Of a DNA stretch of 27,702 nucleotides, positions 5,322 to 27,702 are shown in pieces. The notes under the pieces are model-generated. The model was not told the origin of the DNA and searched no databases. It saw only the letters and a program-made list of their open reading frames with translations. Positions within the stretch are counted from its first letter, which is position 1. Every line of letters begins with the position of its first letter. Origin of the DNA: Streptosporangiaceae bacterium (lineage in GTDB: Bacteria > Actinomycetota > Actinomycetes > Streptosporangiales > Streptosporangiaceae); the NCBI GenBank assembly GCA_030040475.1, contig JASHTQ010000474.1:1-27702 (forward strand), read 5' to 3'. Made by a program: the position numbers and the translations under genes.

Positions 5322-5490
5322 ATTCTCTGCCGAAAAATACATTAAGTATGTGCTTGACTTCGTAGAGTGATAATCGTACCGTCGGATAGCCGCTCGAACG
5401 CGCCAGGCGGAAGGAGGCCGCCGGCGATCGGCTGACGTTAGCCATTCCCCCGAGAACAACCCGACCCCCCGTGGGCAACTGCGTTGTTTC
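5322..5490 (+). promoter_or_regulatory. Relatively AT-rich intergenic leader upstream of the DUF1906 gene
   Basis: About 170 non-coding bases lie between the hydrolase and the secreted protein. Bases 5325-5380 are clearly richer in A/T than the surroundings. They hold a small inverted repeat ATAC-ATTAA-GTAT (5337-5349), a TTGACT element (5354-5359) and a GATAAT element (5369-5374). The last two are only 9 bases apart, too close to be a normal -35/-10 pair, so I cannot define one promoter. The next gene is likely transcribed from here because the upstream operon ends just before. Confidence 0.45.
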
Positions 5491-5500
5491 GGGGGAGAGC

Positions 5501-6337
5501 ATGCATCGTACGGCCGTGTTCGTAGCCGGCGGCTACGCATTCGCCTTGATCGGCATGGGCGCGGGATATGGACCGGCCCTGGCCAGCGCGGAGACGGTAG
5601 CCGCCGCCAGGCACGCATCGAACCCGATGACCGGTTTCGACACGTGCACCGCGCCGCCACTGCACACCATGAAGGTCTGGCGGGCGAAATTCTCCGCCGT
5701 CGGAATCTACATAGGCGGCGAGGACATGGCCTGCTCGTACGGCAACCTGTCCGCGGCGTGGGTCCGCGCGGTGACGGCGATGGGCTGGTCGCTGCTGCCC
5801 ATCTACGTCGGGCCGCAGCCGTCCTGCGATCATTATTCCGGGCGGATCAACCCCAAGGTGGCCGCCGCGCAGGGCCGCCTGGCGGCGAGATTCGCGGCGC
5901 GCCATGCGAAGGCATTCGGCATCGGCAAAGGATCGCCGATCTACTATGACATAGAGGCCTATAACCGCAAGAATTCGCGGTGCGCGAACGCGGTGCTCAC
6001 ATTCCTGGACGCCTGGGACAGGCAGCTGCACGCGGAAGGGTACGTACCCGGCGTGTACTCGAGCGCAGATTCCGCCATTGTGAGCCTGGAGAAGACCAGC
6101 CGGATCAACGGCCACCGGCTGGCCAAGCCGCAATGCGTCTGGGTTGCCCTGTGGAATAACAAGGAAAACCTGAACGCGTCACCCTACCTGAAGGGCTCCG
6201 CGTGGCGGCGGACGGATACCTCGAAGCAATACTCCGGCCCGCACAAGGTCAAGGTCGGCGGCATCGCGCTCAACGTCGACGTGGATCTGATCGACAGTCC
6301 GGTCGTGCGCGCCAACCGCCAGGCGCGCCGTCATTGA
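5501..6337 (+). CDS. Secreted DUF1906 (glycoside hydrolase-like, Rv2525c-type) protein
   Basis: I choose ATG 5501 because GGGGGAGAG lies directly before it (5491-5499). An upstream in-frame GTG at 5471 would break the signal peptide. The 278-residue product starts with a Sec-type signal (residues 1-30, hydrophobic, ending ALASA before ETV). The rest matches DUF1906: NPMTGFDTCTAP, AVGIYIGGEDMACS, AVTAMGWSLLPIYVGPQ and GSPIYYDIEAY. The fold of this family resembles GH25 lysozymes. Asp48, Asp150/Glu152 and Asp260/Asp262 are candidate active-site acids. The Mycobacterium tuberculosis relative Rv2525c is exported and linked to the cell envelope, so a peptidoglycan- or glycan-related role outside the cell is plausible but unproven. 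Codon use includes ATA, TAT and AAT more than its neighbours, hinting at different origin. It is monocistronic. Confidence 0.88.
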   Translation: MHRTAVFVAGGYAFALIGMGAGYGPALASAETVAAARHASNPMTGFDTCTAPPLHTMKVWRAKFSAVGIYIGGEDMACSYGNLSAAWVRAVTAMGWSLLPIYVGPQPSCDHYSGRINPKVAAAQGRLAARFAARHAKAFGIGKGSPIYYDIEAYNRKNSRCANAVLTFLDAWDRQLHAEGYVPGVYSSADSAIVSLEKTSRINGHRLAKPQCVWVALWNNKENLNASPYLKGSAWRRTDTSKQYSGPHKVKVGGIALNVDVDLIDSPVVRANRQARRH

Positions 6338-6354
6338 CGGGCGGCCGCCCGTCA
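6335..6354. terminator. Perfect 20-bp palindrome between convergent genes (bidirectional terminator candidate)
   Basis: TGACGGGCGG is followed directly by CCGCCCGTCA, a perfect inverted repeat with no spacer. Its first three bases are the stop codon of the DUF1906 gene, and it lies 9 bases before the end of the convergent oxidoreductase gene. There is no T-tract, which is common for actinobacterial hairpin terminators. It could work for both strands. Confidence 0.6.
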
Positions 6355-6363
6355 GGGCCGGGA

Positions 6364-7773
6364 CTAAGAATCGAAGCCCATGCCCGCGGCGTCCATGGCC
6401 CGCAGCCACAGGTTCCTGCGTCCGGACCTGCGGTCGGCCCGGGCCAGGGACCAGCGGGTCGCTTGCACGCCCAGGTAGGCGAGCGGCTCGGGCGGGAAGG
6501 GCACCGGCTTGCTGCGCACCATCGCAAGCTCGGTCAGCTCGGTTCGCTCGCCGCTCAGCAGGTCGAGGACCACCCGGGCGCCGAACCTGCTCGCGCCCAC
6601 GCCGAGCCCGGTGTAACCGAGCGCGTAGCCGACCCTGCCGTGATGGGCGGTGCCGAAGAAGGCGCAGAACCGGCTGCAGGTGTCGACCGCGCCGCCCCAG
6701 CGGTGGCTGAACCCGATGCCTTCCAGCTGCGGGAACGTGGTGAAGAAGTGATCGGCCAGCCGGACGAACGTGCCGGGCCGCTGGTCGTGGGCCATCCGGA
6801 TATCGCGGCCGAAATGGTAGATGGCGTCATAGCCACCCCACAGGATCCGGTTGTCCGAGGTCAGCCGGTAGTAGTGGAACTGGTTCGCCGAGTCGGCGAT
6901 GCCCTGCCGGTTCCGCCATCCGATCGAGGCCAGCTGCGCCGGGGCCAGCGGCTCGGTCATCAGCACGTAGTCGTAGACGGGCACCACATAGGGGCGCAGC
7001 CGGCGGATCAGCGATCCGAACGCGCCGGTGCCGAGCACGGCGCGCTTGGCCCGCAGCACGCCGTGCCTGGTGCGCACGGTCACCCCGTCGGAGTCGCCGG
7101 CCAGGCCGGTAGCGGGCGTGCGCTCGGCGATGCGGACGCCGAGCCGCTCGCAGGCGGCGGCCAGTCCCCAGGCGAGCCTGGCGGGCTGGATCATCGCCGT
7201 TCCCTTCCTGTCCCAGCTGCCCGCCAGGTAGGTGGGGGAGTTCACCTCGGCCCGCATCGCGGCCTGGTCGAGGAAGGTTGCCCCGCTGGCGTTCGCGGCC
7301 GCGCGGAGCCCGGCAACCTGGTAGTCCTCGGTGGCGACCGTGACGGAGCCGGACCTGGAGAACTCGCAGTCGATGCCGTAGCGGTCCACCGCGGCCTCGA
7401 TCGCGTCCAGGTTCTCGGCGCCAAGGCGCTGCAGGCGAGCGAACTCGGCGGGAAACCTCTCTGTCCCGTTGGCTGCGCCGTGCGTCAGGCTGGCCTCGCA
7501 GAACCCTCCGTTGCGGCCGCTGGCCGCCCAGCCGATGCGGTTGCCCTCAAGCACCAGCACGGATCGTCCGGGGTTGGCCTCCTTGGCAAGCAGGGCGGCC
7601 CACAGCCCGCTGAACCCGGCGCCGATCACCGCCAGGTCGCAGGACGTGTCGCCGGGCAGCGGCGCACGGGCGGCCGGGGCGTCGGGCTGGTCCAGCCAGA
7701 ACGACCTGGGCTTGGCCGCCATCACCAGGCGGCCAAGCTCTGCGTCGCGTCCCGCCTCCGGCTTAGCGGTCAT
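6364..7773 (-). CDS. FAD-dependent amine oxidoreductase (DAO family, PuuB/glycine oxidase-like)
   Basis: This 469-residue protein has the N-terminal Rossmann motif VIGAGFSGLWAALLA (Gly51-Gly56) with Glu76 to bind the FAD ribose. It also has GWAASGRNGGF (81-91), typical of the gamma-glutamylputrescine oxidase/D-amino acid oxidase family, and a C-terminal FAD-contact GYALGYTGLGVGAS. It should oxidise a primary or secondary amine or amino acid, giving an aldehyde or imine and H2O2. The ATG at 7773 lies 11 bases inside the end of the aminotransferase gene, so the two are translationally coupled. Together they suggest breakdown of a polyamine- or GABA-like compound, as in the Puu pathway; the substrate is not shown. 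No transmembrane segment is seen, so it should be cytoplasmic. Confidence 0.92.
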   Translation of the reverse strand: MTAKPEAGRDAELGRLVMAAKPRSFWLDQPDAPAARAPLPGDTSCDLAVIGAGFSGLWAALLAKEANPGRSVLVLEGNRIGWAASGRNGGFCEASLTHGAANGTERFPAEFARLQRLGAENLDAIEAAVDRYGIDCEFSRSGSVTVATEDYQVAGLRAAANASGATFLDQAAMRAEVNSPTYLAGSWDRKGTAMIQPARLAWGLAAACERLGVRIAERTPATGLAGDSDGVTVRTRHGVLRAKRAVLGTGAFGSLIRRLRPYVVPVYDYVLMTEPLAPAQLASIGWRNRQGIADSANQFHYYRLTSDNRILWGGYDAIYHFGRDIRMAHDQRPGTFVRLADHFFTTFPQLEGIGFSHRWGGAVDTCSRFCAFFGTAHHGRVGYALGYTGLGVGASRFGARVVLDLLSGERTELTELAMVRSKPVPFPPEPLAYLGVQATRWSLARADRRSGRRNLWLRAMDAAGMGFDS

Positions 7774-9130
7774 TCCCGCTCGCCGAGGCGAACGCGTCCT
7801 CGAGGATGGACAGTCCCTCGTCGAGCAGGTCCTCGCCGATCACGAGCGGCGGCAGGAAGCGGATCACGTTCCCGAACGTCCCGCAGGTCAGCGTCACAAG
7901 TCCGGCCTGGTGGCAGGCCCGGCTGACGGCCGCGGTCATGCCCGGGTCGGGATCGAGCGTGCCCGGCTTGGTGAGCTCGATGGCGAGCATCGCGCCCCGG
8001 CCTCGCACGTCCGCGATCGCCGGGTACTTCTCCGCCAGCCCGTGCAGCCGCGGCAGCATGATCTCGCCGATCCGGCGTGCCCGCCCGGCCAGGTCCTCGG
8101 CCGCCATGGTCTCGATCGCGCCGAGCGCCGCGGCGCAGGCCACCGGGTTCCCGCCGTAGGTGCCGCCAAGCCCTCCCACGTGCACCGAGTCCATGATCTC
8201 GGCGCGCCCGGTTACCCCGCCAAGCGGCAGGCCGCCGGCGATGCCCTTCGCGGTCGTGATGAGGTCGGGCACCACGCCCTCGTGCTCGCAGGCAAACCAG
8301 TCGCCGGTGCGGCAGAACCCGGTCTGGATCTCGTCGGCGATGAACACGATCCCGTGCTCGCGGCAGAACTCGGCCAGCCCGGCGAGGAACCCGTCCGGCG
8401 GTACCACGAACCCGCCCTCGCCCTGGATCGGCTCGATGATCACGGCGGCCACGTTGTCCTCGCCCACCTGGGTGTGGATGAGGGACTCGATCATCGGCAG
8501 CGCGTTTTCCCGGCACGCCTCACGTCCGCCTGGCCAGCGCAGCGGGTAAGCCATCGGCATCCGGTAGATCTCGCCCGCGAACGGCCCGAACTTGTCCTTG
8601 TACGGCATGTTCTTCGCGGTGAGCGCCATGGTGAGGTTGGTGCGGCCGTGGTAGCCGTGGTCGAACGCGACGATGGCCTGTCTCCTGGTGGCGTGCCTGG
8701 CGATCTTCACCGCGTTCTCGACCGCCTCCGCGCCCGAGTTGAACAGCGCGGATCGCTTGTCGTGGCTTCCCGGCGTGCGCCTGGCCAGCTCCTCGCAGAC
8801 CTCCACGTAGCCCTCATACGGGGTCACCATGAAGCAGGTGTGGGTGAACCTGGACGCCTGCTCGGCGACCCTTGCGGCCACCCTGGGCGCCGCGTTGCCC
8901 ACGGAGACCACGGCGATGCCGGCGCCGAAGTCGATGAGGGAGTTGCCGTCGGCGTCGACGATGACGCCGCCGCCCGCGTCCGTGACGAACACCGGCAGCG
9001 TGGTGCTGACCCCGCGGGCCACCGCGCGCTCGCGCCTCGCCATCAGCTCACGTGAGACGGGTCCGGGGATCTCGGTGACAAGGTGCCGGCGCTGAAGGAG
9101 GCGGGAATCGCCCGCTGCGTGCTCAGTCAT
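7763..9130 (-). CDS. gabT: 4-aminobutyrate--2-oxoglutarate aminotransferase-like (class III PLP)
   Basis: From ATG 9130 the protein has 454 residues, the usual length for GabT. An alternative ATG at 9148 adds MNYGLI. Class III aminotransferase motifs are complete: NSGAEAVENAVKIAR, VAFDHGYHGRT, IIEPIQGEGG, FIADEIQTGFCRTG (Asp contacting the PLP ring nitrogen) and TTAKGIAGGLPLGG with the PLP lysine (Lys295 from 9130). It would move the amino group of GABA or a related omega-amino acid to 2-oxoglutarate, giving semialdehyde and glutamate. Neither ATG has a convincing Shine-Dalgarno. A TATGGT -10 element (9142-9137 on the minus strand) ends six bases before the A of ATG 9130, so a leaderless mRNA is possible. 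It is first in a two-gene operon with the FAD oxidase and is divergent from the PcaB-like gene. Confidence 0.9.
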   Translation of the reverse strand: MTEHAAGDSRLLQRRHLVTEIPGPVSRELMARRERAVARGVSTTLPVFVTDAGGGVIVDADGNSLIDFGAGIAVVSVGNAAPRVAARVAEQASRFTHTCFMVTPYEGYVEVCEELARRTPGSHDKRSALFNSGAEAVENAVKIARHATRRQAIVAFDHGYHGRTNLTMALTAKNMPYKDKFGPFAGEIYRMPMAYPLRWPGGREACRENALPMIESLIHTQVGEDNVAAVIIEPIQGEGGFVVPPDGFLAGLAEFCREHGIVFIADEIQTGFCRTGDWFACEHEGVVPDLITTAKGIAGGLPLGGVTGRAEIMDSVHVGGLGGTYGGNPVACAAALGAIETMAAEDLAGRARRIGEIMLPRLHGLAEKYPAIADVRGRGAMLAIELTKPGTLDPDPGMTAAVSRACHQAGLVTLTCGTFGNVIRFLPPLVIGEDLLDEGLSILEDAFASASGNDR

Positions 9131-13350: not shown

Positions 13351-13857
13351 ATGCGCAAGAGCGGATGGGCAGCAGCTGCCGGTCTCGGATCGCTAGCACT
13401 GCTGCTAGCCGCGTGCGGGGGAGCATCGGGGTCGGCGGGTTCGACCGCCACTCCGACCACCACGGCCGCCGGGCAGGCAACCAGCCAGGCGCTGAACCCG
13501 CCAGGGACGACCGTGCTGATCGTCCAGAAGTCGAACCTCGGCTACGTCCTCGCCGAGGCCAACGGCCAGGTTGTCTACACCTACGGGAACGACAAGAAGG
13601 GCGGCTCGCCGACCTGCACCGGGTCGTGTGCCTCGCAGTGGCCTGCGGTCACCGGCAACCCCAAGTCCATTGCGGCCGATACCCTGCCAGGCACGCTCGG
13701 CACCGTCAGTGACGCGAACGGCGCCAAGCAGGTCACCTACAACGGCTACCCCCTGTACACCTACAAGGGCGCGAAGCCGCTGGCGACGACCGGTAACGGC
13801 GTGGGCGGCCTGTGGCACGTGATCAAGCTGTCCGCGAGCGACGTCTCCGGCGGGTGA
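13351..13857 (+). CDS. Secreted lipoprotein, COG4315/Lipoprotein_15 repeat family (copy 1)
   Basis: This 168-residue protein begins with a lipoprotein signal (MRKSGWAAAAGLGSLALLLAAC). The lipobox is LAAC with lipidated Cys22, followed by a short Thr/Ala-rich linker (23-50). The body has two of the secreted repeats of unknown function: NLGYVLAEANGQVVYTYGND with the YxYxxD motif (Tyr76, Tyr78, Asp81), and QVTYNGYPLYTYKG. Cys89 and Cys93 in CTGSC may form a disulfide or bind a ligand. The protein should be anchored outside the membrane. Family function is not established, and I assign none. It is a tandem paralogue of the next gene, with nearly the same DNA around the start and in the second repeat. 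Confidence 0.92.
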   Translation: MRKSGWAAAAGLGSLALLLAACGGASGSAGSTATPTTTAAGQATSQALNPPGTTVLIVQKSNLGYVLAEANGQVVYTYGNDKKGGSPTCTGSCASQWPAVTGNPKSIAADTLPGTLGTVSDANGAKQVTYNGYPLYTYKGAKPLATTGNGVGGLWHVIKLSASDVSGG

Positions 13858-13874
13858 CCGGAGCAATGACCTGG

Positions 13875-13902
13875 CGTTCCCGCCGGGCCCTCGCCGGGAA
13901 CG
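13875..13902 (+). terminator. Hairpin between the two lipoprotein genes
   Basis: CGTTCCCG (13875-13882) and CGGGAACG (13895-13902) form an 8-base stem with a 12-base loop, 17 bases after the first stop. There is no T-tract. It may be a partial terminator or mRNA-stabilising structure that sets different levels for the two copies. Confidence 0.45.
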
Positions 13903-13924
13903 GCCATCGATGAAGGAGAAAGTT

Positions 13925-14554
13925 ATGCGCAAGAGGGGATGGGCGGCGGCTGCCGGTCTGGGATCGCTGCTGCTGCTCGCCGCGTGCGGGGGATCCTCGA
14001 CGACTAACACGGGCCTGGGGTCCACTACTGCCGCCACGGCCTCGCCGTCGACGGGTGCCGCCGCGACGACAGCGCCAAGCCCGACGGTGGCCCAGAAGAC
14101 GGCCTCCCCGAAGCCGACGGTGAAGCAGACGACGCCCCACCCGACCGGCCCCACCGCGGGACCGCAGCCGAGCAGTCACCTGAGCGACTCGCTGCCGCCG
14201 GTAGGCACGACCATCATGGTCGTGCAGAAGTCCGATCTCGGTTTCGTGCTCGCCGAGGCGAACCACATGGTGGTCTATACCTACGCCAAGGACAAGAAGG
14301 GCGGCCCGCCGACCTGCACCGGATCATGCGCTGATACCTGGCTGCCGGTGACGGGCGTACCGCAGGTGTCGGCGGCCGACACCCTGCCGGGCACGCTCGG
14401 CACGGTCACCATGGCGAACGGCGGCAAGCAGATCACCTACAACGGCTACCCCCTGTACACCTACAAGGGCTCGGATCCGTACACCACCACCGGCAACGAC
14501 GTCGGAGGGGTGTGGCACGTGGTGATGCTCTCCGAGAGCGACATCACGGGCTAG
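13925..14554 (+). CDS. Secreted lipoprotein, COG4315/Lipoprotein_15 repeat family (copy 2, long linker)
   Basis: ATG 13925 is preferred over in-frame ATG 13910 because AAGGAG (13913-13918) then sits at the right distance and the product begins MRKRGWAAAA like its neighbour. The 209-residue lipoprotein has lipobox LAAC with Cys21. A Pro/Thr/Ser-rich linker (about residues 25-92) is much longer than in copy 1. The repeats are DLGFVLAEANHMVVYTYAKD (YxYxxD at Tyr118, Tyr120, Asp123) and QITYNGYPLYTYKG. Cys131 and Cys135 are conserved. The linker probably lets the domain reach further into the cell wall. The role is unknown. The pair clearly arose by duplication, and the two folded domains have diverged less than the linkers. 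Confidence 0.92.
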   Translation: MRKRGWAAAAGLGSLLLLAACGGSSTTNTGLGSTTAATASPSTGAAATTAPSPTVAQKTASPKPTVKQTTPHPTGPTAGPQPSSHLSDSLPPVGTTIMVVQKSDLGFVLAEANHMVVYTYAKDKKGGPPTCTGSCADTWLPVTGVPQVSAADTLPGTLGTVTMANGGKQITYNGYPLYTYKGSDPYTTTGNDVGGVWHVVMLSESDITG

Positions 14555-18305: not shown

Positions 18306-19349
18306 CTACCTGCGGAGGCGCGGAACGCCGGTCTGATACACGGCGCGCAGGCGGGCCTGTGCGGCGGGTGTGGCGTGCACGTGGTCCAGGCCGAGCAGCG
18401 CGGCCCCGGCCACCGGTGCCACCTCGATCACCCGCACGATCGCGGCCGGGGCGGTCGCGGCCAGACGTCGGGTGATGCCGCCCATCAGCAGCGGGTTCCT
18501 CGCCGTCAGCACGCTGCCACCGAGGACGACCGGGGTGGCCAGGTTATCCAGGCCGAGCCGCCGCATCGCGGTGACGGCCATCACCGAGACCTCCTCGGCG
18601 AGGCGGTTCACCACGGCAAGCGCCACCTGGTCGCCTTCATCGGCGGCACGCAGCAGCATGGGCGCCAGGCCGGTCAGGTCGTCCTCGCCGATCTTCCCCT
18701 TGTGGATGCCCAGCGTCACGTCCTCGACCTTGTCCACGCCGAAATGGCTGGTCAGGTAGCCGGCCAGGGCCGTGGCCGGGCCGCGGCCGTCTTCCGCGCG
18801 GATCGCGTGCCACAGAACCTCCATCCCCAGGCCGTAGCCGCCGCCCCAGTCGCCCGAGATCGCGCCCAGGGCCAGGTACCTGGTGACCCTGCCGTCCGGC
18901 GCGACGCCGACGCAGTTGATGCCCGCGCCGCAGACCACCGCCACGCCCCAGTGCGCTCCGGGCTCGGAGCCTGCCCGCAGGATCGCGAACGTGTCGTTGA
19001 CCACGGTGGCGGTCGGGCTCCAGCCCTGGGCCTGGACGACCGCGGCGTGTTCCGCCTCCTCTTCTGGCAGGTCCGCGTTGGCCAGGCAGGCCACCGTGTG
19101 CCTGGCGACGAAGCCCGACCTCGCCCCGTCGAGCTGGGCCGCGGCCTGCTTGACCACCGCGTCCAGGACGAGCACGGTCTGGTCGACGCCGACCTCGTGC
19201 GCGTTGATGCCAGGGCCGCGGGCCGAGGCGAGCACGATGCCGTCGCCGGCCACGAGGGCCACGTCGGTCTTGCTGTTGCCGCCGTCGATGGCCAGCACGG
19301 CTGCCAGCGGGCCTGTGCCGTGGCGGGCGCCCGAGTGCGGCTCAGCCAA
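18306..19349 (-). CDS. BadF/BadG/NagK-family sugar kinase (N-acetylglucosamine/glucosamine kinase-like)
   Basis: This is a kinase of the BadF/BadG/BcrA/BcrD ATPase family. Phosphate 1 motif is AIDGGNSKTDVALV (Asp22), the catalytic Asp119 is in VVNDT, phosphate 2 is GAGINC (141-146), then SGDWGGGYGLG (165-175) and adenosine motif VVLGGSV. The start is uncertain. TTG 19349 overlaps the GH9 stop by 8 bases and gives 347 residues; GTG 19298 would give 330. Longer starts only read through the GH9 gene. In this family the characterised sugar enzymes are GlcNAc kinase (human NAGK) and the Vibrio glucosamine kinase GspK. Being last in an oligosaccharide operon right after GH9, it probably phosphorylates the released monosaccharide, or perhaps a disaccharide for the GH4 enzyme. 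Confidence 0.87.
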   Translation of the reverse strand: MAEPHSGARHGTGPLAAVLAIDGGNSKTDVALVAGDGIVLASARGPGINAHEVGVDQTVLVLDAVVKQAAAQLDGARSGFVARHTVACLANADLPEEEAEHAAVVQAQGWSPTATVVNDTFAILRAGSEPGAHWGVAVVCGAGINCVGVAPDGRVTRYLALGAISGDWGGGYGLGMEVLWHAIRAEDGRGPATALAGYLTSHFGVDKVEDVTLGIHKGKIGEDDLTGLAPMLLRAADEGDQVALAVVNRLAEEVSVMAVTAMRRLGLDNLATPVVLGGSVLTARNPLLMGGITRRLAATAPAAIVRVIEVAPVAGAALLGLDHVHATPAAQARLRAVYQTGVPRLRR

Positions 19350-21294
19350 GGCCGGCCCCGCCTTGGCCAGCAGCGCCGAGGGCGAAGGCGAACAGGGACG
19401 CGGCGGTGTAGTCGTCGGCCGGTTCGACCGAGGGCCAGGACACCACGTTGTCCTCGTAGGCGGCGGCCGCGGTATTGAACGCGGCGTAGTTCCCGGCGCT
19501 GCAGGCGCGCATCCCGGTGACGGTGCCGAGGCCGGCGAAATTGCCCGGGCTGCTCGGCCCGTCGGTGGTCGCGCCGAGCTGGATGTCGCCGGCGCCGGTG
19601 AGCGATCCGGCCAGGTTGGCGATCTCGCTCTGCATGCAGCGCGGGAACACCGTGCCGGCGCCGACAACGAACGAGCTGCCCCACCCGTTGGCGCCGAGCG
19701 CGAAGTTCAGCTGCTGCTGCGCGAACGCCTGGTACCGGCTGGAACCGCCGTACTCCTGGTACAGCGCGTCGGTGATGAACAGGCCGAACGCGTGCGGCGA
19801 CGCGTCCGAGGGACCGAGCTGCGTGCCGAGCTCGAACGGGTCGCCGCTGGCCCAGTCCTCGCCGGTACGCAGCTGCGCGGCGAGGTCGCCGAGCAGCGCG
19901 CTTGGCGCGATGACCGGGGTGCCCCCGGCCGTGCGCATCGCCTGCAGCAGCTCGGCCTCGGCGACCGCGCCGTTGTCGTAGAGGTTGAACGTGTCGCCGT
20001 CGGCAGCGTGACCCTGGGCGATGTAGGCCCTGGCCCAGCGGGCCGCGGTCTGCAGGTCGGCCTGCAGCCGGGCGGGCGACGCGCCGGTCGCCTCGTCGGC
20101 GAGCGCGATCTCGGCGGCGCCCCAGAGCATGTCGCTCTTCCACTCGGTGCCCGGGTAGTAGTCGTGCGGGAACGCGGTGACAAGCTGCCCGACCCGTGTC
20201 GTCTTGGCCATGGCGTAGACGCCGCGGGCCATAGCGAGCAGGCGCTGTGCCTGGGCGGAATCGCCAGAAGCGGCGGCGAGCTGCGCGCCGAGGGCGAAGT
20301 CGGCGGCGAACCGGCCGGCCAGGTCGGGGCTGACCGGCTGGCCGGGCGGCGCCGCCTCGAACACCGGCCGGTACTTGACGTAGTACGCCGTCGGGCCCGG
20401 GTCACCGCCGGGACCGACGTCCATGCGGTCCTCGGCCTGCGGCAGGAACCAGAAGTTGTAGTCGCCCTGGATCGTGTTGCTCGCGTTGCCGTTGCCGATG
20501 CCGACCTGGACGTACATCACCTTCTGCGCGGGGTTCCACAGCTTGCCGATCCACTGCAGGCCGAACTCGGCCTCGGGCAGCAGCGCCGGGTACTCACCCG
20601 GATAGTCCCGGGCGGCGATCAGCATCAGCGCGTCCGCGTAGCTGGCCGTGTACGCGAACTTCTCGTAGCCGCCGCCGGCGTCGAACCAGCCGCCGGACAC
20701 GTCGACAGGGCCGCCGATCCGGCGCAGCGAGCCCAGCAGGTTGTCGTTGCCGTCGTAGCTCGGGTCCGCGTAGACGTAGGCCCGCTCGTCGGTCAGGTTG
20801 GCGGGCTGGCGGTCAAGCACGGCCGCATCGGTGTCCGGCCCGTCGCGCTCGGAGGTGAAGTACCGCACCGCGTTGTCGACGAGCTGGCGGTACAGCTGGG
20901 ACCCGCTGCCGATCACGAACGAGGGGGAGACCGCGGTTGCCGGGGACAGGAGCCTGACCTGGTAGACGCCTGCGGTCCTGACGCCGGAGAAGTCGAGCTC
21001 ATATACCGCCCGGTAGCCGGAGTTCCACGCTCCCACGTCGTCGGAAGAGGCGCCCAGGTAGGCGACTCCGTACGACGTGGTGACCTCGAACCGCACGGCC
21101 GCGGAAGGCCGGGCCAGCATCGCGAAGGCGACCTTCGGGCCCGACGCCGGGTACCCCACCTGGTTGACCCGCACCTGCGCCGGGGCCGCCGCGGCCGCGG
21201 CCCCGCCGGGGTCGGCCGCAGCGGCGGCCGCCGGGATGACCGTGGCAAGCGTGAGCGCGGCCGCCGTCGGGACCGTCCACCATGCGCGTCTCAT
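19342..21294 (-). CDS. Exported glycoside hydrolase family 9 protein with N-terminal CelD-type Ig domain
   Basis: ATG 21294 is chosen because GAGGAGG (21307-21301) lies 6 bases before it, overlapping the GH4 stop. The 650-residue product has an N-terminal signal (basic MRRAWW, hydrophobic core, Ala-rich cleavage region to about residue 38). An Ig-like CelD_N domain follows (about 40-128, VRVNQVGYPASGPKVAF), then an (alpha/alpha)6 GH9 domain (about 133-640). The key segment reads GGWFDAGGGYEKF (201-213) where GH9 enzymes normally have DAGD: Asp205 is present but the second Asp is Gly208, with an extra residue. The cellulase HHR motif is replaced by PRCMQSEIANLAGS (551-564). Glu614 or Glu624 is the candidate acid. 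It is probably not a cellulase; context suggests a glucosaminidase-like enzyme. The kinase start overlaps its stop. Confidence 0.88.
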   Translation of the reverse strand: MRRAWWTVPTAAALTLATVIPAAAAAADPGGAAAAAAPAQVRVNQVGYPASGPKVAFAMLARPSAAVRFEVTTSYGVAYLGASSDDVGAWNSGYRAVYELDFSGVRTAGVYQVRLLSPATAVSPSFVIGSGSQLYRQLVDNAVRYFTSERDGPDTDAAVLDRQPANLTDERAYVYADPSYDGNDNLLGSLRRIGGPVDVSGGWFDAGGGYEKFAYTASYADALMLIAARDYPGEYPALLPEAEFGLQWIGKLWNPAQKVMYVQVGIGNGNASNTIQGDYNFWFLPQAEDRMDVGPGGDPGPTAYYVKYRPVFEAAPPGQPVSPDLAGRFAADFALGAQLAAASGDSAQAQRLLAMARGVYAMAKTTRVGQLVTAFPHDYYPGTEWKSDMLWGAAEIALADEATGASPARLQADLQTAARWARAYIAQGHAADGDTFNLYDNGAVAEAELLQAMRTAGGTPVIAPSALLGDLAAQLRTGEDWASGDPFELGTQLGPSDASPHAFGLFITDALYQEYGGSSRYQAFAQQQLNFALGANGWGSSFVVGAGTVFPRCMQSEIANLAGSLTGAGDIQLGATTDGPSSPGNFAGLGTVTGMRACSAGNYAAFNTAAAAYEDNVVSWPSVEPADDYTAASLFAFALGAAGQGGAGLG

Positions 21295-21305
21295 CGGAAG
21301 CCTCC

Positions 21306-22556
21306 TCATGCCCAGGACAGGTAGCGGGCGTTCTCCGCGATCAGCCGGTCGGTCAGGCACCGCGCCCGGTCGGCCTGGCCCACCAGCGGGTGCGCGAGCA
21401 GCGCCTCGTACACCCGGTCGCGGCCGCCGCGGATCGCCGCGTCAAGCGCCAGCTCCTCGTAGGCGTACACGTGCGCGATCAGCCCGCGCAGCAGCGGCTG
21501 GACCGGGTCGACAGGCACCGGCGCCGCGCCGTCAGCGCCGATGACGGCGGGCACCTCGATCACCGCGTCGGCGGGCAGGAACGGCAGCGTCGCCCCGTTG
21601 AAGGTGTTGACCACCTGCACGTCGCGGCGATCGCCGGTCAGCGAGATCAGCAGGTCCACCGCCGCCTCGGAGTACCACGCCCCGCCGCGCTTGGACAGCT
21701 GCTCGGGCTTGCGGTCAAGCGCCGGGTCCGCGTACAGCCCGAGCAGCTCGGCCTCCAGCCGTGCCACCTGCTCGGCGCGGGTCACCGCGCCCCGCTGCTC
21801 CGCGACCACCGCGTCGTGGGCGTAGTAGTAGCGCAGGTAATAGGACGGCACCATGCCCAGCCGGCGGACGAACTGCGCGGGCAGCCCGGTGTGCGGCGCG
21901 ATCTGGTCCAGATGCAAGGCGAGCAGCGAAGGCAGCACGTCGGTGTCCTTGACCCAGACCGAGCGCTCCCAGGTCAGGTGGTTCAGGCCGACGTGCCCGA
22001 GCGACACGTCCTGCGGCGCGACGCCGAGCAGGCCGGCGAAGTGGCGCTGGAATCCGATCGCCACGTTGCACAGTCCCACCGCGCGATGGCCGGCCGACAG
22101 CAGCGCCCGCGTGACGATCCCCACCGGGTTCGTGAAGTCGATAAGGAAGCAAGAGGGCGAAGCCCGACGCACCGCCCGTTCGGCCAAATTCACGATGATG
22201 GGTACGGTGCGCAGCGCCTTTGCAAGGCCGCCGGCACCGGTGGTTTCCTGCCCTACGCACCCGCAGTCACGCGGCCAGGTCTCGTCGCGCTGGCGCGCGG
22301 CCTGCCCGCCGATCCGCAGCTGGAACACGATCGCGTCGGCGCCGTCCGCGCCCTCGTCCAGGCTGTCCGTCCAGCGGACCTGGGCGGTATGGCCGTGCGC
22401 GGCCATGATCCGGGCCGACACCGGCCCGACCGCGGCCAGCCGCTCGGTGTCCGGGTCGACGAGCACGAGCTCGGACACCGCCGGCAGCAGCCGGCCGATG
22501 CCGTCCGCGAGCTCGGGCGTGTAGGTGGAACCGCCGCCGATCACCGTCAGCTTCAT
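21306..22556 (-). CDS. Family 4 glycosidase (NAD+/Mn2+-dependent, 6-phospho-beta-glucosidase type)
   Basis: This 416-residue GH4 enzyme starts at ATG 22556, overlapping the upstream ATPase stop by four bases. The NAD+ motif is KLTVIGGGSTYTPEL (2-16). FTNPVGIVTRALL follows, then GLCNVAIGFQRH with metal ligand Cys163, and GLNHLTW with His193. The CNVxIG form of the cysteine motif is typical of the beta-6-phosphate branch rather than alpha-glucosidases or alpha-galactosidases. GH4 enzymes cleave by oxidation at C3, elimination and re-addition of water, and this branch usually needs a 6-phosphate on the non-reducing sugar. No PTS gene is present here, but a sugar kinase is two genes downstream. 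The GH9 gene follows after 11 bases. It acts in the cytoplasm. Confidence 0.92.
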   Translation of the reverse strand: MKLTVIGGGSTYTPELADGIGRLLPAVSELVLVDPDTERLAAVGPVSARIMAAHGHTAQVRWTDSLDEGADGADAIVFQLRIGGQAARQRDETWPRDCGCVGQETTGAGGLAKALRTVPIIVNLAERAVRRASPSCFLIDFTNPVGIVTRALLSAGHRAVGLCNVAIGFQRHFAGLLGVAPQDVSLGHVGLNHLTWERSVWVKDTDVLPSLLALHLDQIAPHTGLPAQFVRRLGMVPSYYLRYYYAHDAVVAEQRGAVTRAEQVARLEAELLGLYADPALDRKPEQLSKRGGAWYSEAAVDLLISLTGDRRDVQVVNTFNGATLPFLPADAVIEVPAVIGADGAAPVPVDPVQPLLRGLIAHVYAYEELALDAAIRGGRDRVYEALLAHPLVGQADRARCLTDRLIAENARYLSWA

Positions 22557-23560
22557 TGCTCTACCTTCTGCGCCGCAGCCTCACCGGCCACGGCGGCGGC
22601 AACGTGGCAGGCCGCCCGGTGCCCAGGTGCCAGCTCCTCAAGCACCGGAGTCACCGAAGAGCAGACGTCGATGGCGAGCGGGCACCGCAAGCGGAACCTG
22701 CAGCCGGGGACGGGGTCGATGACCTTGGGCGGCTCGCCGCGGTCGGTCTCCGCCGCCACCGACAGCGGCGCCCGCGGGTCCGGCACGGCGGACAGCAGCA
22801 GCTGGGTGTAGGGGTGCCTCGGGTGGGCAAGCACCTCCTCGATCGGGCCCTCCTCGGCGATCTGGCCGGCGTACATCACGATCAGCCGGTCCGCCACGTA
22901 CCGCGCGCTCGCGATGTCGTGGGTGATGTACAAGACCGAGACGCCCTGAGCGTCGCGCAGCTCGGCCATCAGGTTGAGCAGGCCGATCCTGATCGACACG
23001 TCGAGCATCGAGACCGGCTCGTCGGCCAGGATCAGCCTGGGCCGCATCGCCAGCGCCTGGGCGAATCCGACCCGCTGGCGCTGCCCGCCACTCAGCTCGT
23101 GCGGGAACCGGTCCAGCATGTCGGCGCCGAGCCCGACCACCTCGAAGACCCGCTCCGCCTCCTCGCGCCGCTGCCTGGCCGACAGCTCCGGGCGGTGCAG
23201 CTTGAGGCTGCGCAGCACGCCGTGCTGGACCCGGAACACCGGGTTGATCGAGCCGAACGGGTCCTGGAACACCATCGGCACCAGGCCGCTGTAGCGGAGC
23301 CGGCCGCGGCGGGAGCGGATCGCCGATACCGGCTTGCCCTCGAAGTAGATCTCCCCGCCTGTCGGCGCGTAGATCCTGGCGAGCACGCGGGCGATCGTGG
23401 ACTTGCCGCTGCCGCTCTCGCCGGCCAGCGCCACGATCTCCCGGTCGCCGACGCCGAAGCTCACGTCGTCCACGGCGTGCAGCGTCCGCCGCGACAGCAG
23501 CCCGCCGATCTTGAAGTGCCTGGTCAGGTGCTCGGCCCGCAGCAGCTCGGTGGAAGTCAT
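22553..23560 (-). CDS. Oligopeptide/oligosaccharide ABC transporter ATPase (OppF/DppF type)
   Basis: This 335-residue ATPase starts at ATG 23560, overlapping the OppD-type stop (ATGA). Walker A is GESGSGKST (47-55), the Q-loop glutamine is Gln99, the ABC signature is LSGGQRQR (156-163), Walker B is LILADEP (176-182), and the switch His is in YITHDI. The C-terminal Opp/Dpp extension has the Cys-rich CRFRLRCPLAIDVC segment, which in relatives binds an iron-sulfur cluster or metal. Walker B is followed by VSMLD instead of the more common TSALD. It pairs with the OppD-type ATPase and the two permeases to drive import. Despite the peptide-family name, the downstream GH4, GH9 and kinase genes point to a sugar ligand. 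Confidence 0.93.
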   Translation of the reverse strand: MTSTELLRAEHLTRHFKIGGLLSRRTLHAVDDVSFGVGDREIVALAGESGSGKSTIARVLARIYAPTGGEIYFEGKPVSAIRSRRGRLRYSGLVPMVFQDPFGSINPVFRVQHGVLRSLKLHRPELSARQRREEAERVFEVVGLGADMLDRFPHELSGGQRQRVGFAQALAMRPRLILADEPVSMLDVSIRIGLLNLMAELRDAQGVSVLYITHDIASARYVADRLIVMYAGQIAEEGPIEEVLAHPRHPYTQLLLSAVPDPRAPLSVAAETDRGEPPKVIDPVPGCRFRLRCPLAIDVCSSVTPVLEELAPGHRAACHVAAAVAGEAAAQKVEQ

Positions 23561-24573
23561 CGGCGGATGCTCCGCTCGCTGCTGGCCGGCACTGGCTGGC
23601 TGGGAGCTGGCAGGCTGCCGTCCTGGCGGCGCAGGCAGCGCACCAGCGCGTCGTCGAGTTCGGACAGGTCCGGCTCGACCTGGGTGCACCTGTCCACCGT
23701 GTACGGGCACCGCGGGTGGAACCGGCAGCCGGACGGCGGCGCGGCCAGGTCGGGCGGGCTGCCCGGGATGCCCTTGAGCGGGACCTTGGGGCCGCGGATG
23801 GACGGGAAGGCCTCGAGCAGGCCCTGGGTGTACGGGTGCTGCGGGCGGTCGAAGACCGTCCTTGTCGGGCCGAACTCGTCCACCTGCCCGGCGTACATCA
23901 CCATCAGCCGGTCGGAGAAGTGGCTGATCAGGGACATGTCGTGGGTGACGAAGATGACCGCGAAGCCGTAGCTGAGCTGGAGTTCCTTGATCTGGGCCAT
24001 CAGCGAGCGCTGCGCCACCACGTCGAGCGCGGAGGTGGGCTCGTCCATGATCACCAGGTCCGGGGTGAACAGCATCGCCATCGCGATCATCGACCGCTGC
24101 CGCATCCCGCCCGACAGCTGGTGCGGGTAGCTGCCCAGGTGCACGGGGTCGATGCCGACCATCCGCAGCACCTCGGCCGACCTGGCCGCGATCTCCTCCC
24201 GGGACGGCTTGCCGTGCGCCCGCATCGCGTCGGCGAACTGCGCCCCGATCGACTTGACCGGGTTCAGCGCGTTCATCGCGCTCTGCATGACGACCGACAT
24301 GTCCCGCCAGCGGACCGCGGACAGCTGCTTGTCGGTCAGGCCCACCAGGTCGGTGCCCTTGAACGTCACGCTGCCGGCGACGACAGCAGCCGGCGGGGAC
24401 AGCAGCTGGGCCACCGCGAACAGCAACGTCGACTTCCCGCAGCCCGACTCGCCCACGATGCCGAGGAACTCGCCCCGGTCCAGGGTGAACGACACGCCGT
24501 CCACCGCCCGGACGTCGCCGCGGTCCAGCACGTAGTCCACGGACAGGCCGACGACCTCAAGCACTTCGGACAC
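23557..24573 (-). CDS. Oligopeptide/oligosaccharide ABC transporter ATPase (OppD/DppD type)
   Basis: This 338-residue ATPase starts at GTG 24573 with AAGGAG just upstream (about 24588-24583). Walker A is GESGCGKST (41-49), the signature is LSGGMRQR (153-160), Walker B is [12 protein letters not shown] (173-184), and the switch His is in FVTHDM. The Opp/Dpp C-terminal region carries [15 protein letters not shown]. It overlaps the upstream permease gene by 17 bases and the downstream ATPase by four, so the transporter genes are tightly coupled. It would form the heterodimeric motor with the OppF-type protein. The tail past about residue 310 is low-complexity and rich in Pro, Ser and Arg. Confidence 0.93.
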
Positions 24574-25525
24574 GCTGGCTCCTTCGGGCGGTCCTTCCCG
24601 CGCTCCTTCGCACGGGCCGCAGCGCCGGGTTGCCGATCTCGTCGAAGGCGTAGTTGAGCAGGGCGAACGCCGCGCCGAGGACGGCGATGCAGGCTCCGGG
24701 CGCGATCGCCCACAGCGCCTGGCCGGTCTGCAGGGCGGCGTTGTTCTGCGCCCAGTAGAGCATCGTGCCCCAGCTGACCGTGTCCGGGTCGCCCAGGCCG
24801 ATGAACTGCAGGCTGGAGGCGAACAAGATCGCGTACAGCGCGTTGGTCAGGAAGCTCGCCACGATCAGCGAGGTCATCGTGGGGATGACCTCCATCACGA
24901 TGATGTACAGCCGGCGCTCGCCGCGCACCCTGGCCGCCTGCAGGAAATCCCTGCTGCGCAGCGTGAGCGCCTGCGCCCGCAGCTGCCGCGCCGTGTAGGA
25001 CCAGCTGGTGACGGTGATGACGACGATCAGCAGCAGCGTGCCGCCGCCGTGCGCATAGGCGGCGATCACGATCAGCAGCGGGAACAGCGGGATGACGAGC
25101 AGCACGTCGGTGAGCACGCCGAGCGAGCTGTCCCACAGCCCGCCCAGGTAGGCAGCGGCCACGCCGACCAGTACGGCGATCCCTGTGGTGGCCAGCCCGA
25201 CCGTGAACGCGATGATCATCACGTTCCTCGTTCCCCACACCAGCTGGGCGAACATGTCCTGGCCGTAGGCGGTGGTGCCGAGCAGGTGAGCGGTCGACGG
25301 CCCGAGGTGCGGCTTGTAGGCGTCCAGGCTCGGGTTGTCGTGCGCGATCACGCCGGGGAACAGCGCGACGAGGACGAAGAACACCAGCAGCACGGTGCCG
25401 ACGGTGGCCTTGCGGTTCGACCGCACCGCGCGGCCCATCCGGGCCAGCGCGTGGCTGGCCGCCGGAAATGTCGACTGGCGGCGCGGCTCGCCGGCGGGCT
25501 GGCCGAGGGACAGCGGGATCGACAT
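24557..25525 (-). CDS. ABC transporter permease (DppC/OppC type)
   Basis: This 322-residue inner-membrane protein has a first transmembrane helix at about 40-61, a periplasm-type loop with HLLGTTAYGQDMFAQLVWGTR (typical of DppC: LGTDxxGRD), and about five further helices. The cytoplasmic EAA coupling loop SRDFLQAARVRGERRLYII (191-209) contacts the ATPases. The family consensus Arg-Asp near position 90 is changed to Gln-Asp (YGQD). ATG 25525 lies 2 bases after the DppB-type stop; the ribosome site is weak, consistent with coupling to the upstream gene. It forms the membrane channel with the DppB-type permease. Confidence 0.93.
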   Translation of the reverse strand: MSIPLSLGQPAGEPRRQSTFPAASHALARMGRAVRSNRKATVGTVLLVFFVLVALFPGVIAHDNPSLDAYKPHLGPSTAHLLGTTAYGQDMFAQLVWGTRNVMIIAFTVGLATTGIAVLVGVAAAYLGGLWDSSLGVLTDVLLVIPLFPLLIVIAAYAHGGGTLLLIVVITVTSWSYTARQLRAQALTLRSRDFLQAARVRGERRLYIIVMEVIPTMTSLIVASFLTNALYAILFASSLQFIGLGDPDTVSWGTMLYWAQNNAALQTGQALWAIAPGACIAVLGAAFALLNYAFDEIGNPALRPVRRSAGRTARRSQRVRSA

Positions 25526-25527
25526 GG

Positions 25528-26514
25528 CTAGCTCGCCGCCCTGGTCCGCGGGTCGAGCACCGCGGTGACGATGTCGGCGATCAGGATCGCCACAAGCACC
25601 GCCACCGTGATGAGCAGGAACAGCGCCTGCATCAGCGGGTAGTCCTCACCCTGCACCGCCTGCAGCAGCATGAACCCCACGCCCGGGTAGTTGAACACGT
25701 ACTCGATGAGGATGGCGCCGCTGACCACGAAGCCCAGCGACATGGCAAAGCCGGTCAGGTTCGGCAAGATCGCGTTGCGCGCCGCGTAGTCGAGCATGAT
25801 CCGCCGTCCCGGCAGGCCCTTGGCCCTGGCCATCCGCACGTAGTCCTCGGCCAGCGTGGTGATCATGGTGTTCCGCATGGTCAGGATCCAGGTGCCGACC
25901 GTGGTGATCACCAGCGAGAGCGCGGGCAGGATGGAGTGGCTGAGCACGTCGCCGATGAAGTGCAGCGTGAGGCCGGGGGTGTCGCCCGTGACGTTGTAGC
26001 CGCCCACGTACGGCACCCAGTGCAGGCTGATGCCGAACACGAGCACCAGCACCATGGCCACCCAGAAGTACGGCACCGCCGAGGCGATCACGAACACCGG
26101 CGGCAGCACGCTGTCCAGCCGGCCGCCCCGCCGCCAGGCGGCGACGATGCCCAGCCCGGTGCCGAGCGCGAAGGCAAGGACCGTGCTCACGCCCACCAGG
26201 CCGAGCGTCCACCAGATCGCGCTGCCGATGACCGAGGTGACCGACGCCGGGTAGAAGTCCAGCGAGGTGCCGAAGTTGCCCGTCACCACCTGGTGCAGGT
26301 AGCTGACGTACTGCGAGGGCAGCGATTGATGCGTGTTGACGCCGAACAGGATCTCGAGCGCCTTCAGCGACTGCGGGGTGAGCTCGCCGTGGAACTTGGC
26401 CATCATGGCCAGCGCCGGGTTGCCTGGCATCAGCCGCGGCAGCAGGAAGTTGAGGGTCAGCGCCGCCCACAGCGTCAGCACGAAGAAGCCGAGGCGGCGT
26501 AGCGCGAATCTCAA
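25528..26514 (-). CDS. ABC transporter permease (DppB/OppB type)
   Basis: This 328-residue permease starts at TTG 26514, with AGGGGA about 10 bases upstream. It has an N-terminal helix (8-28) directly followed by LPRLMPGNPA, typical of DppB. Other features are GNFGTSLDFYPASV (79-92), about five more membrane helices, the EAA loop EDYVRMARAKGLPGRRIM (223-240), and the end DIVTAVLDPRTR, which is diagnostic for this family. No ATG or GTG fits better, since conserved residues begin at once. It is the first permease after the binding-protein gene, separated from it by a hairpin (26534-26561). Confidence 0.93.
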   Translation of the reverse strand: MRFALRRLGFFVLTLWAALTLNFLLPRLMPGNPALAMMAKFHGELTPQSLKALEILFGVNTHQSLPSQYVSYLHQVVTGNFGTSLDFYPASVTSVIGSAIWWTLGLVGVSTVLAFALGTGLGIVAAWRRGGRLDSVLPPVFVIASAVPYFWVAMVLVLVFGISLHWVPYVGGYNVTGDTPGLTLHFIGDVLSHSILPALSLVITTVGTWILTMRNTMITTLAEDYVRMARAKGLPGRRIMLDYAARNAILPNLTGFAMSLGFVVSGAILIEYVFNYPGVGFMLLQAVQGEDYPLMQALFLLITVAVLVAILIADIVTAVLDPRTRAAS

Positions 26515-26533
26515 GCTGGATCCCCTGGGTCAG

Positions 26534-26561
26534 GCGGGGTTGGGAGTGAGCCCAACCCCGC
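26534..26561 (-). terminator. Hairpin between the binding-protein and permease genes
   Basis: GCGGGGTTGGG (26534-26544) and CCCAACCCCGC (26551-26561) form a perfect 11-base stem with a 6-base loop, starting 8 bases after the binding-protein stop. There is no U-tract on the minus strand. In such operons a hairpin here commonly lowers or protects transcripts so that more binding protein than permease is made. Confidence 0.7.
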
Positions 26562-26569
26562 ACCCGTCG

Positions 26570-27702
26570 TTAGCGAGGCTTGAGGTGCAGCAGCACCTGC
26601 TCGTTGTCCGGATAGGCCCATACTGGCGGCTGCGCGTACGGGTCGCTAGGGGTGGGCCAGCCGGAGAAGGCCGCCGTGTCGTACTGGTACCAGTCCACCC
26701 CTTCGGTGATCGGGATGATCGGCACCTGGGACAGCATGACCTGCTCGAGCTGGTCGACGATGGAGTGCTGGGCCGCCGCGGACGTCGTGCTGGCGTACTG
26801 GTTGAGCAGGGCCTCGGTGGCGGCGTTGCTGTAGCGCTCGTAGTTGGTCGCCGCCGTCTTGCCGATCGGCGCCGTGTCGGCCGAGTTCAGCCAGTCGTTC
26901 AGCTCGTAGTACGGGCCCGGGCCGATGGTCTGCTGCTCGACGTAGGCGAGCTGGAAGTTGCCGGGGAACAGGTCGGCGTCGTAGTCGGTGTTGGTCAGGT
27001 TCTGGGGCGTCACCTGGATGCCGACGGCCTTGAGGTCCTGCACGATCACCTGCATGGAGGCGAGCCAGTCGGAGTAGTCGCCGATGTTGATCACGGTGAA
27101 GGACAGCTGCTTGCCCGCCGCGTTCACCATGATTCCGTTCGAGCCCAGGTGGTAGCCCGCCTGGGCGAGCAGCTGCTTGGCCTTGGCCGGGTCGTAGCTG
27201 TAGTTGCCGTAACCGGCCAGCGCGGAGGAGTCCAGCCAGCTTGAGTAGGTCGGGGTCACGATGCCCGCCTGGTTGGCGGCGGGCTCGTAGCCGGACTCGC
27301 CGATGCTGGAGACCTGCGGGCGGTTGATCGCGTAGGCCATCGCCTGGCGGACCTTGACGTTGGCCAGCAGCGGGTTGGTCAGGTTCGGCACCAGCGAGAC
27401 GTTCAGCACCGGCGGGAACCAGTAGTGGAAGGCCGGGCTCTTGGAGGTGTAGAAGGCCTGGATGCCCGGGATGTACTGGGCGCCCCACTGGGCCTGGCCG
27501 TCGGCCAGCTCGTCGTTGGCCGTGTTGTTGCTGGTGAAGGCCGGGTACTTCAGCGTCTTGACGTGCGGCTCACCGGGCTGCCAGTAGTGCGGGTTGGCCG
27601 TGTAGGTGATGTTCGCCGCCGTGCACGGGTTCACCTCGTAGGGACCGCTGCCGACCGGGTGGGAGTCGGGGTAGGCCACCGGGTTGGCGATCGTCGACCA
27701 GA
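26570..27702 (-). CDS. Family 5 extracellular solute-binding protein, C-terminal part
   Basis: The frame is open to the window edge, so the signal peptide and N-terminus are missing; 376 residues are visible. They match the C-terminal two-thirds of SBP family 5 (DppA/OppA, cellobiose- and chitobiose-binding relatives). Typical are HPVGSGPYEV, then NPHYWQPGEPHVKTLKYPAF, NPLLANVKVRQAMAYAINR (the conserved helix), AKQLLAQAGYHLGSNG and VPIIPITEGVDWYQYD. It would catch the substrate outside the membrane and deliver it to the permeases that follow. Family 5 proteins bind peptides, nickel, heme or oligosaccharides; ligand type here is inferred only from the sugar enzymes in the operon. It is the first visible gene of the operon. 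Confidence 0.92.
   Translation of the reverse strand, partial: WSTIANPVAYPDSHPVGSGPYEVNPCTAANITYTANPHYWQPGEPHVKTLKYPAFTSNNTANDELADGQAQWGAQYIPGIQAFYTSKSPAFHYWFPPVLNVSLVPNLTNPLLANVKVRQAMAYAINRPQVSSIGESGYEPAANQAGIVTPTYSSWLDSSALAGYGNYSYDPAKAKQLLAQAGYHLGSNGIMVNAAGKQLSFTVINIGDYSDWLASMQVIVQDLKAVGIQVTPQNLTNTDYDADLFPGNFQLAYVEQQTIGPGPYYELNDWLNSADTAPIGKTAATNYERYSNAATEALLNQYASTTSAAAQHSIVDQLEQVMLSQVPIIPITEGVDWYQYDTAAFSGWPTPSDPYAQPPVWAYPDNEQVLLHLKPR

Follow-up and report, generated by a model that had tools for sequence, protein, structure and literature searches.

A likely variant of the actinomycete csn operon with an Opp-type importer and an inserted GH9 gene in a Streptosporangiaceae bacterium

The csn operon of Streptomyces (csnREFGHK) is described in passages of two publications as comprising a repressor of the ROK family, an importer for chitosan oligosaccharides, a glycoside hydrolase of family 4 (GH4), a saccharide kinase and the operator AGGAAANTTTCCT (PMC6097792, PMC5635096); CsnK is named there as a putative oligosaccharide kinase (PMC5635096). 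In Vibrio, a passage of another report gives VC0615 as a glycoside hydrolase of family 9 (GH9) in a chitin-utilisation operon (PMC6096475). The DNA studied here, called the window, is a stretch of 27,702 nucleotides from a Streptosporangiaceae bacterium (contig JASHTQ010000474.1), and one end of it holds a row of eight genes for an Opp-type importer with a family 5 solute-binding protein (SBP), a GH4, a GH9 and a kinase. An earlier note on this DNA, drawn from the sequence alone, had taken the row for a counterpart of the Vibrio chitobiose (chb) operon to which a GH4 had been added. We conclude that the row is probably a modified csn operon of the actinomycete kind, serving glucosamine (GlcN) oligosaccharides derived from chitosan, with an Opp-type importer and an inserted GH9.

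The GH4-kinase pair and the csn operon

The eight genes, in the order SBP, two permeases, two ATPases, GH4, GH9 and kinase, lie on the minus strand, close together or overlapping, and this order, as first read, was confirmed by Pfam. The GH4 gene (21306..22556; PF02056/PF11975) encodes a CsnH-like protein predicted to be a 6-phospho-beta-glycosidase, and the BadF/NagK-type kinase gene (18306..19349; BcrAD_BadFG, PF01869, 1.7e-20) encodes a CsnK-like protein whose likeliest start is a TTG at 19349, overlapping the end of the GH9 gene. In quick trees both proteins nest among csn-type proteins, beside those of locus L092; the window thus holds a csn-type GH4 and kinase, though GH9 sits between the two.

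With models of the GH4 and the kinase, made from five sequences each from the window lineage, we searched 394 genomes of the class, scoring the best four or five candidates in each. Our genome searches were limited in this way to between 3 and 5 candidates per genome, so that match counts are lower bounds. The GH4 model gave at least 83 matches in 81 genomes and the kinase model at least 88 matches in 78 genomes. A kinase match was located within 500 bases of 76 of the 83 GH4 genes, and within 10 bases for 43 of these; in G003, one of the seven exceptions, the gap is occupied by a GH9 gene. Judged by gene neighbourhood, GH4 and kinase are a conserved actinobacterial core. Since the two form a conserved pair, and since locus L051 has them without a GH9, it is GH9 that is the insertion and not GH4, which reverses the proposal that GH4 had joined a Vibrio-type operon.

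Twenty loci around GH4 or kinase matches were fetched, hand-picked from a longer list, as were two other locus sets. A ROK-type regulator was detected by tblastn in 10 of the 20, and in seven (L093, L094, L095, L096, L097, L106 and L108) a CsnR box with 0-1 mismatch stands where the ROK gene begins, that of L106 lying inside the called first codons of the gene. A family 1 SBP was found in L096, L145, L163 and L178, the four loci covered by the Pfam check, and in L096 and L163 it accompanies a Pfam-confirmed ROK regulator. Exact CsnR boxes numbered three in 1.37 Mb of locus DNA against none in one shuffle, which preserved single-base composition only. Two loci, L107 (8245-10322) and L100 (1401-3436), contain a tandem pair of csnK-like kinase genes.

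A search of actinobacterial genomes, which the earlier note had proposed, recovered the same block in L001, L007, L009 and L148, and in L003 from the first permease onward, where it is cut by the contig edge; because of this recurrence the block is not a product of chance. Extra genes separate the second ATPase from GH4 in L009. A divergent ROK gene faces the SBP gene in L001, L007, L009/L114 and L148, with an operator between them; this operator, TTAGGATACTGTCCTAA, is identical in L001, L009/L114 and L148 and near-identical in L007, where the called start of the ROK gene overlaps with it. Genes in the relatives were called with a home-made open reading frame (ORF) caller based on GC position, so that their starts are uncertain. 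In L009 the insert (5659-8676) holds a PfkB kinase and a distant second GH4, besides a short ORF that by eye looks peroxiredoxin-like.

By SBP, the nearest outside relatives are L051 to L054. These have a ROK-family kinase gene ahead of the SBP gene (Pfam-checked in three) and CsnR-like boxes with 2 or 3 mismatches, and the contigs of L052 to L054 stop within or ahead of the importer. L051 has no GH9, and its order is GH4, kinase and a deaminase-like gene, whose product resembles glucosamine-6-phosphate (GlcN-6-P) deaminase (173 bits with the NagB-II model, below the cut-off of 430).

The window lineage and the csn operon have in common the GH4 and saccharide kinase genes and an oligosaccharide importer of the ATP-binding cassette type, and the window's relatives also share the ROK regulator and operators like that of csn. 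They differ in that the family 1 importer type of CsnEFG is replaced in the window by a five-gene Opp-type importer (SBP_bac_5 and Opp-type ATPases by Pfam), in the GH9 gene between GH4 and kinase, and in the divergent orientation of the relatives' ROK gene.

The best PDB matches of GH4 are 6-phospho-beta-glucosidases (1.4e-79), and C163, N164 and H193 are invariant across the five aligned rows, as in enzymes of that type; Cys and His presumably belong to the metal site. The best PDB match of the kinase is an N-acetylmuramic acid (MurNAc)/N-acetylglucosamine (GlcNAc) kinase (2.1e-18); human NAGK was also matched, and the match to the NagK_SO3507 model falls far under its cut-off. Because GH4 resembles 6-phospho-beta-glucosidases, the most economical reading is that an imported disaccharide would be phosphorylated before it is cleaved.

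The GH9 gene: linkage, kinship and active site

The GH9 gene (19342..21294; CelD_N and GH9 domains, PF00759, 2.4e-48) encodes 650 amino acids. The GH4 stop codon (21308-21306) is followed by AGGAGG and then by the GH9 ATG at 21294. A putative Sec signal peptide, MRRAWWTVPTAAALTLATVIPAAAAAAD (21205..21294, end approximate), was judged by eye, and on this ground the protein is apparently exported.

The GH9 subfamily was searched for in 341 genomes of the family, giving at least 68 loci in 66 genomes, all of which were read. In 18 of the 68 a kinase or GH4 gene lies within 2 kb on the same strand. Half of the other 50 loci (25) have a CsnR-like box with at most 2 mismatches no more than 300 bases from where the GH9 alignment begins, 19 of them with at most 1. 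Length-matched control windows, drawn from these loci with true boxes left in, had a box with at most 2 mismatches in 248 of 20,000 cases (1.2%) and with at most 1 in 145 of 20,000, while control windows of 300 bases had one in 194 of 20,000; the box counts are uncorrected for kinship. Six loci (L163, L173, L181, L187, L190 and L192) show the order GH4, kinase, GH9, ROK. Since the subfamily is linked to csnK or GH4 and has CsnR-like boxes well above the control windows, it looks, from its genomic surroundings, to be part of the csn regulon elsewhere. Within the window's own GH9 clade (11 loci), five loci are linked, and a box with 2 mismatches occurs in L171, which is the same site as L010. 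In L010 (9722-11812) the GH9 gene stands beside an MMPL transporter gene, with TTTGGTAACTTTCCTAAC ahead of GH9.

The protein resembles endoglucanases and belongs to an actinobacterial clade. This likeness is one reason to consider uptake of cellobiose or another beta-glucoside, in which GH9 would be a cellulase, the SBP would bind cello-oligosaccharides, and kinase and GH4 would handle 6-phospho-cellobiose. The resemblance of GH4 to 6-phospho-beta-glucosidases would suit such a system, as would the GH1-like and GH3 genes beside related SBPs. However, the relatives carry CsnR-type boxes and a ROK gene, GH4 is paired with the kinase as in csn, L051 has a deaminase-like gene, and an upstream box was found at none of 10 canonical cellulase-type GH9 loci (one with just 108 bases there). 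Cellobiose uptake is thus unlikely, though it is the strongest competitor of the csn assignment.

At the active site, the motif DAGGGYEK (20659..20682) has lost one conserved Asp. The second active-site Asp is Gly in 12/12 rows of the window clade in a 48-row alignment, and in 19/19 rows of another alignment; the other 36 of the 48 rows, among them the sister clade, read DAGD. The first Asp and the acid Glu are kept, so the full set of two Asp and one Glu of an inverting hydrolase is not present. The Glu in question, Glu626 (SVEPADDY, 19423..19425), is the predicted general acid from the alignment, by analogy with a passage on the Vibrio enzyme (PMC6096475).

A passage of a 2018 review notes that glucosaminidases of family GH9 were undocumented for actinobacteria in CAZy (PMC6097792). 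That review aside, among the papers listed in a literature search, judged by titles and abstract openings and with most subscription journals outside it, none connects GH9 with CsnR or with the use of chitosan by actinobacteria. We tentatively raise the idea, which is doubtful as a whole, that the GH9 subfamily associated with csn represents a secreted family of actinobacteria, active on chitosan and so far undescribed, and that the window clade within it either has an altered chemistry or has become a chitosan-binding scavenger. Under an altered chemistry, phosphate or another outside nucleophile could take part, or else a carboxylate at a new place, for example the invariant Glu of GGGYEK.

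The binding protein and the comparison with Vibrio

Of the SBP gene, the C-terminal 376 residues are present (26570..27702; PF00496, 9.5e-44, domain row 27700-26570). The contig ends inside this gene, so that its start and promoter are absent from the window. It is followed by the Opp/Dpp-type permeases B (25528..26514; PF00528, BPD_transp_1, 5.3e-44) and C (24557..25525; PF00528, 7.5e-18, with PF12911 under the cut-off), and by the ATPases D (23557..24573) and F (22553..23560), both with PF00005 and PF08352 (ABC_tran+oligo_HPY). For ATPase F, Pfam was run on the longer frame 22553-23710 and the start was placed at MTSTELL.

The best solved matches of the SBP are Vibrio chitooligosaccharide-binding proteins (VhCBP, chain 6lzv, 2.2e-43), followed by sugar-binding proteins (9e-35 to 2e-22) that we take to be those of Thermotoga. 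In a tree of 46 rows, the window falls in a fully supported actinobacterial clade of nine rows and VhCBP in a fully supported clade of five rows with rhizobial proteins. In approximately unbiased (AU) tests, made on a quick tree with three long-branch rows left out, a grouping of VhCBP with the window clade alone was rejected (p 2.4e-05), whereas a larger clade that unites the window group with the Vibrio-plus-rhizobial group was not (p 0.57). In a plasmid search with a VhCBP segment, the top rows among the 15 of 2,497 records listed were rhizobia. On a Rhizobium leguminosarum plasmid, L071 (8893-16312), a gene annotated as beta-N-acetylhexosaminidase comes after an importer with a family 5 SBP, and this SBP falls in the VhCBP clade. 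Such rhizobial plasmid operons with a hexosaminidase or GH3 gene (L071, L078) share with the window the order SBP, permeases, ATPases and a glycosidase gene, but lie in the VhCBP clade, with the window outside. In L098 (5640-15005) and L099 (1003-9260), a csn-type GH4, with the kinase too in L098, is paired with an Opp-type importer.

According to passages of the VhCBP work, Arg436 and Phe437 read the N-acetyl group, and roles are given for further ligand residues (PMC8449061). In all nine rows of the window clade the two are absent, being replaced by A/G/S/P and T/S next to an alignment gap. N204 and D365 are retained in 9/9 rows, W363 is Y in eight and F in one, and W513 is W in two and Y or F in seven. 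Because the residues that read N-acetyl are missing and other ligand residues are retained, this pattern is compatible with a sugar ligand that need not carry N-acetyl groups, as would be expected for GlcN oligomers.

A further known system close to the row is the Vibrio chb operon, with CBP and the GH9 VC0615 (passages of PMC6096475 and PMC8449061). With the Vibrio gene order as given below, the two have in common a family 5 SBP, two permeases, two ATPases, a GH9 and a kinase in a row. The window differs in having a GH4, in a GH9 that bears a putative signal peptide and has its closest relatives outside the Vibrio exo type, in the unconserved Arg436/Phe437 pair, and in the ROK-type regulator of its relatives. 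Neither profile comparison nor the predicted structure (pLDDT, predicted local distance difference test, 92.3; a first model with pLDDT 58.6 was set aside) shows any special closeness of the window GH9 to the Vibrio exo-beta-glucosaminidases such as VC0615 and PBPRA0520, and a reading of this GH9 as a Vibrio counterpart is not supported.

A true counterpart of the Vibrio operon, transferred horizontally or kept from an ancient shared module and later joined by GH4, would explain the best solved SBP matches and the wider clade that passed the AU test. A single-sequence GH9 search matched a Vibrio GH9 only, and the order in Vibrio, which we take to be SBP, two permeases, two ATPases, GH9 and kinase, is functionally alike. 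The GH9 genome search matched 2 of 14 control genomes, neither of them Vibrio. We regard this origin as very improbable for the row as a whole; the likeness looks to be mostly convergence of parts drawn from the same large families, though the importer may have a remote common origin. An importer of peptides or muropeptides that sugar genes adjoin by chance, which the Opp/Dpp family of the importer and the MurNAc/GlcNAc kinase as nearest match to the kinase might suggest, can hardly be credited, since a dipeptide-binding protein matches the SBP at just 2.5e-09, far weaker than VhCBP, and the sugar genes accompany the importer in L001, L003, L007, L009 and L148.

Elsewhere in the window, a cytochrome P450 gene (16769-18226) lies on the same strand 79 bases past the kinase; by tblastn (E up to 1e-8) it had no match in L001, L003, L007, L009 or L148. 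Two PF03640 secreted-repeat genes stand side by side at 13351-14554, and a protein with an Rv2525c-like glycoside-hydrolase-like domain is encoded at 5471-6337.

Counter-evidence and the proposed pathway

Several observations weigh against assignment of the row to csn. The window contains no CsnR box at up to 2 mismatches, its promoter and ROK gene being beyond the contig end. A first genome scan with GH9 gave 10 loci, of which four have the block and six have GH9 without the operon in the stretch examined, which for L002, L005 and L008 is short at one side. Among the 68 GH9 loci, 22 have neither linkage nor box, and three more have a ROK gene only. In the window clade, a strict count leaves 5/11 loci (L166 to L170) neither linked nor boxed; L169 and L170, the places of L004 and L005, have a shortened box, TTAGTAGGTTTCCTAA, which the strict 13-mer scan missed and which was counted as none. 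Of 19 genomes searched, 18 of which carry this GH9 subfamily (G163 does not), just two had a GH46 chitosanase and none a GH75, but the GH75 search matched no control either. The genes beside related SBPs, identified by annotation or by eye, include GH1, GH3, GH32 and hexosaminidase genes among others, and the missing Arg436/Phe437 pair belongs here as well. The lost Asp may mean that the window GH9 is inactive, and the kinase may act on free GlcN rather than on the disaccharide.

Even so, a csn variant remains the best account of the window. In such a pathway, an extracellular GH9 would shorten chitosan or GlcN-rich oligosaccharides, and the Opp-type importer would take up GlcN di- or oligosaccharides. 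The kinase would phosphorylate GlcN saccharides (or GlcN), cleavage of the 6-phosphorylated disaccharide by GH4 would yield GlcN-6-P and GlcN, and GlcN-6-P would enter central metabolism. The divergent ROK regulator of the relatives presumably binds the adjoining GTTAGGATACTGTCCTAAC-type operators.

The suspicion that an amino-sugar oligosaccharide system lay behind a peptide-transporter label is supported by the CBP-like SBP and the csn-type GH4-kinase core, and a supposed peptide transporter can be re-labelled as a likely importer of chitosan sugars. The Opp-type SBPs of L098 and L099 are placed elsewhere in the SBP tree than those of the window lineage, which suggests an exchange of importers in the csn pathway. 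The comparison also brings to notice a GH9 subfamily that is likely to be under csn control.
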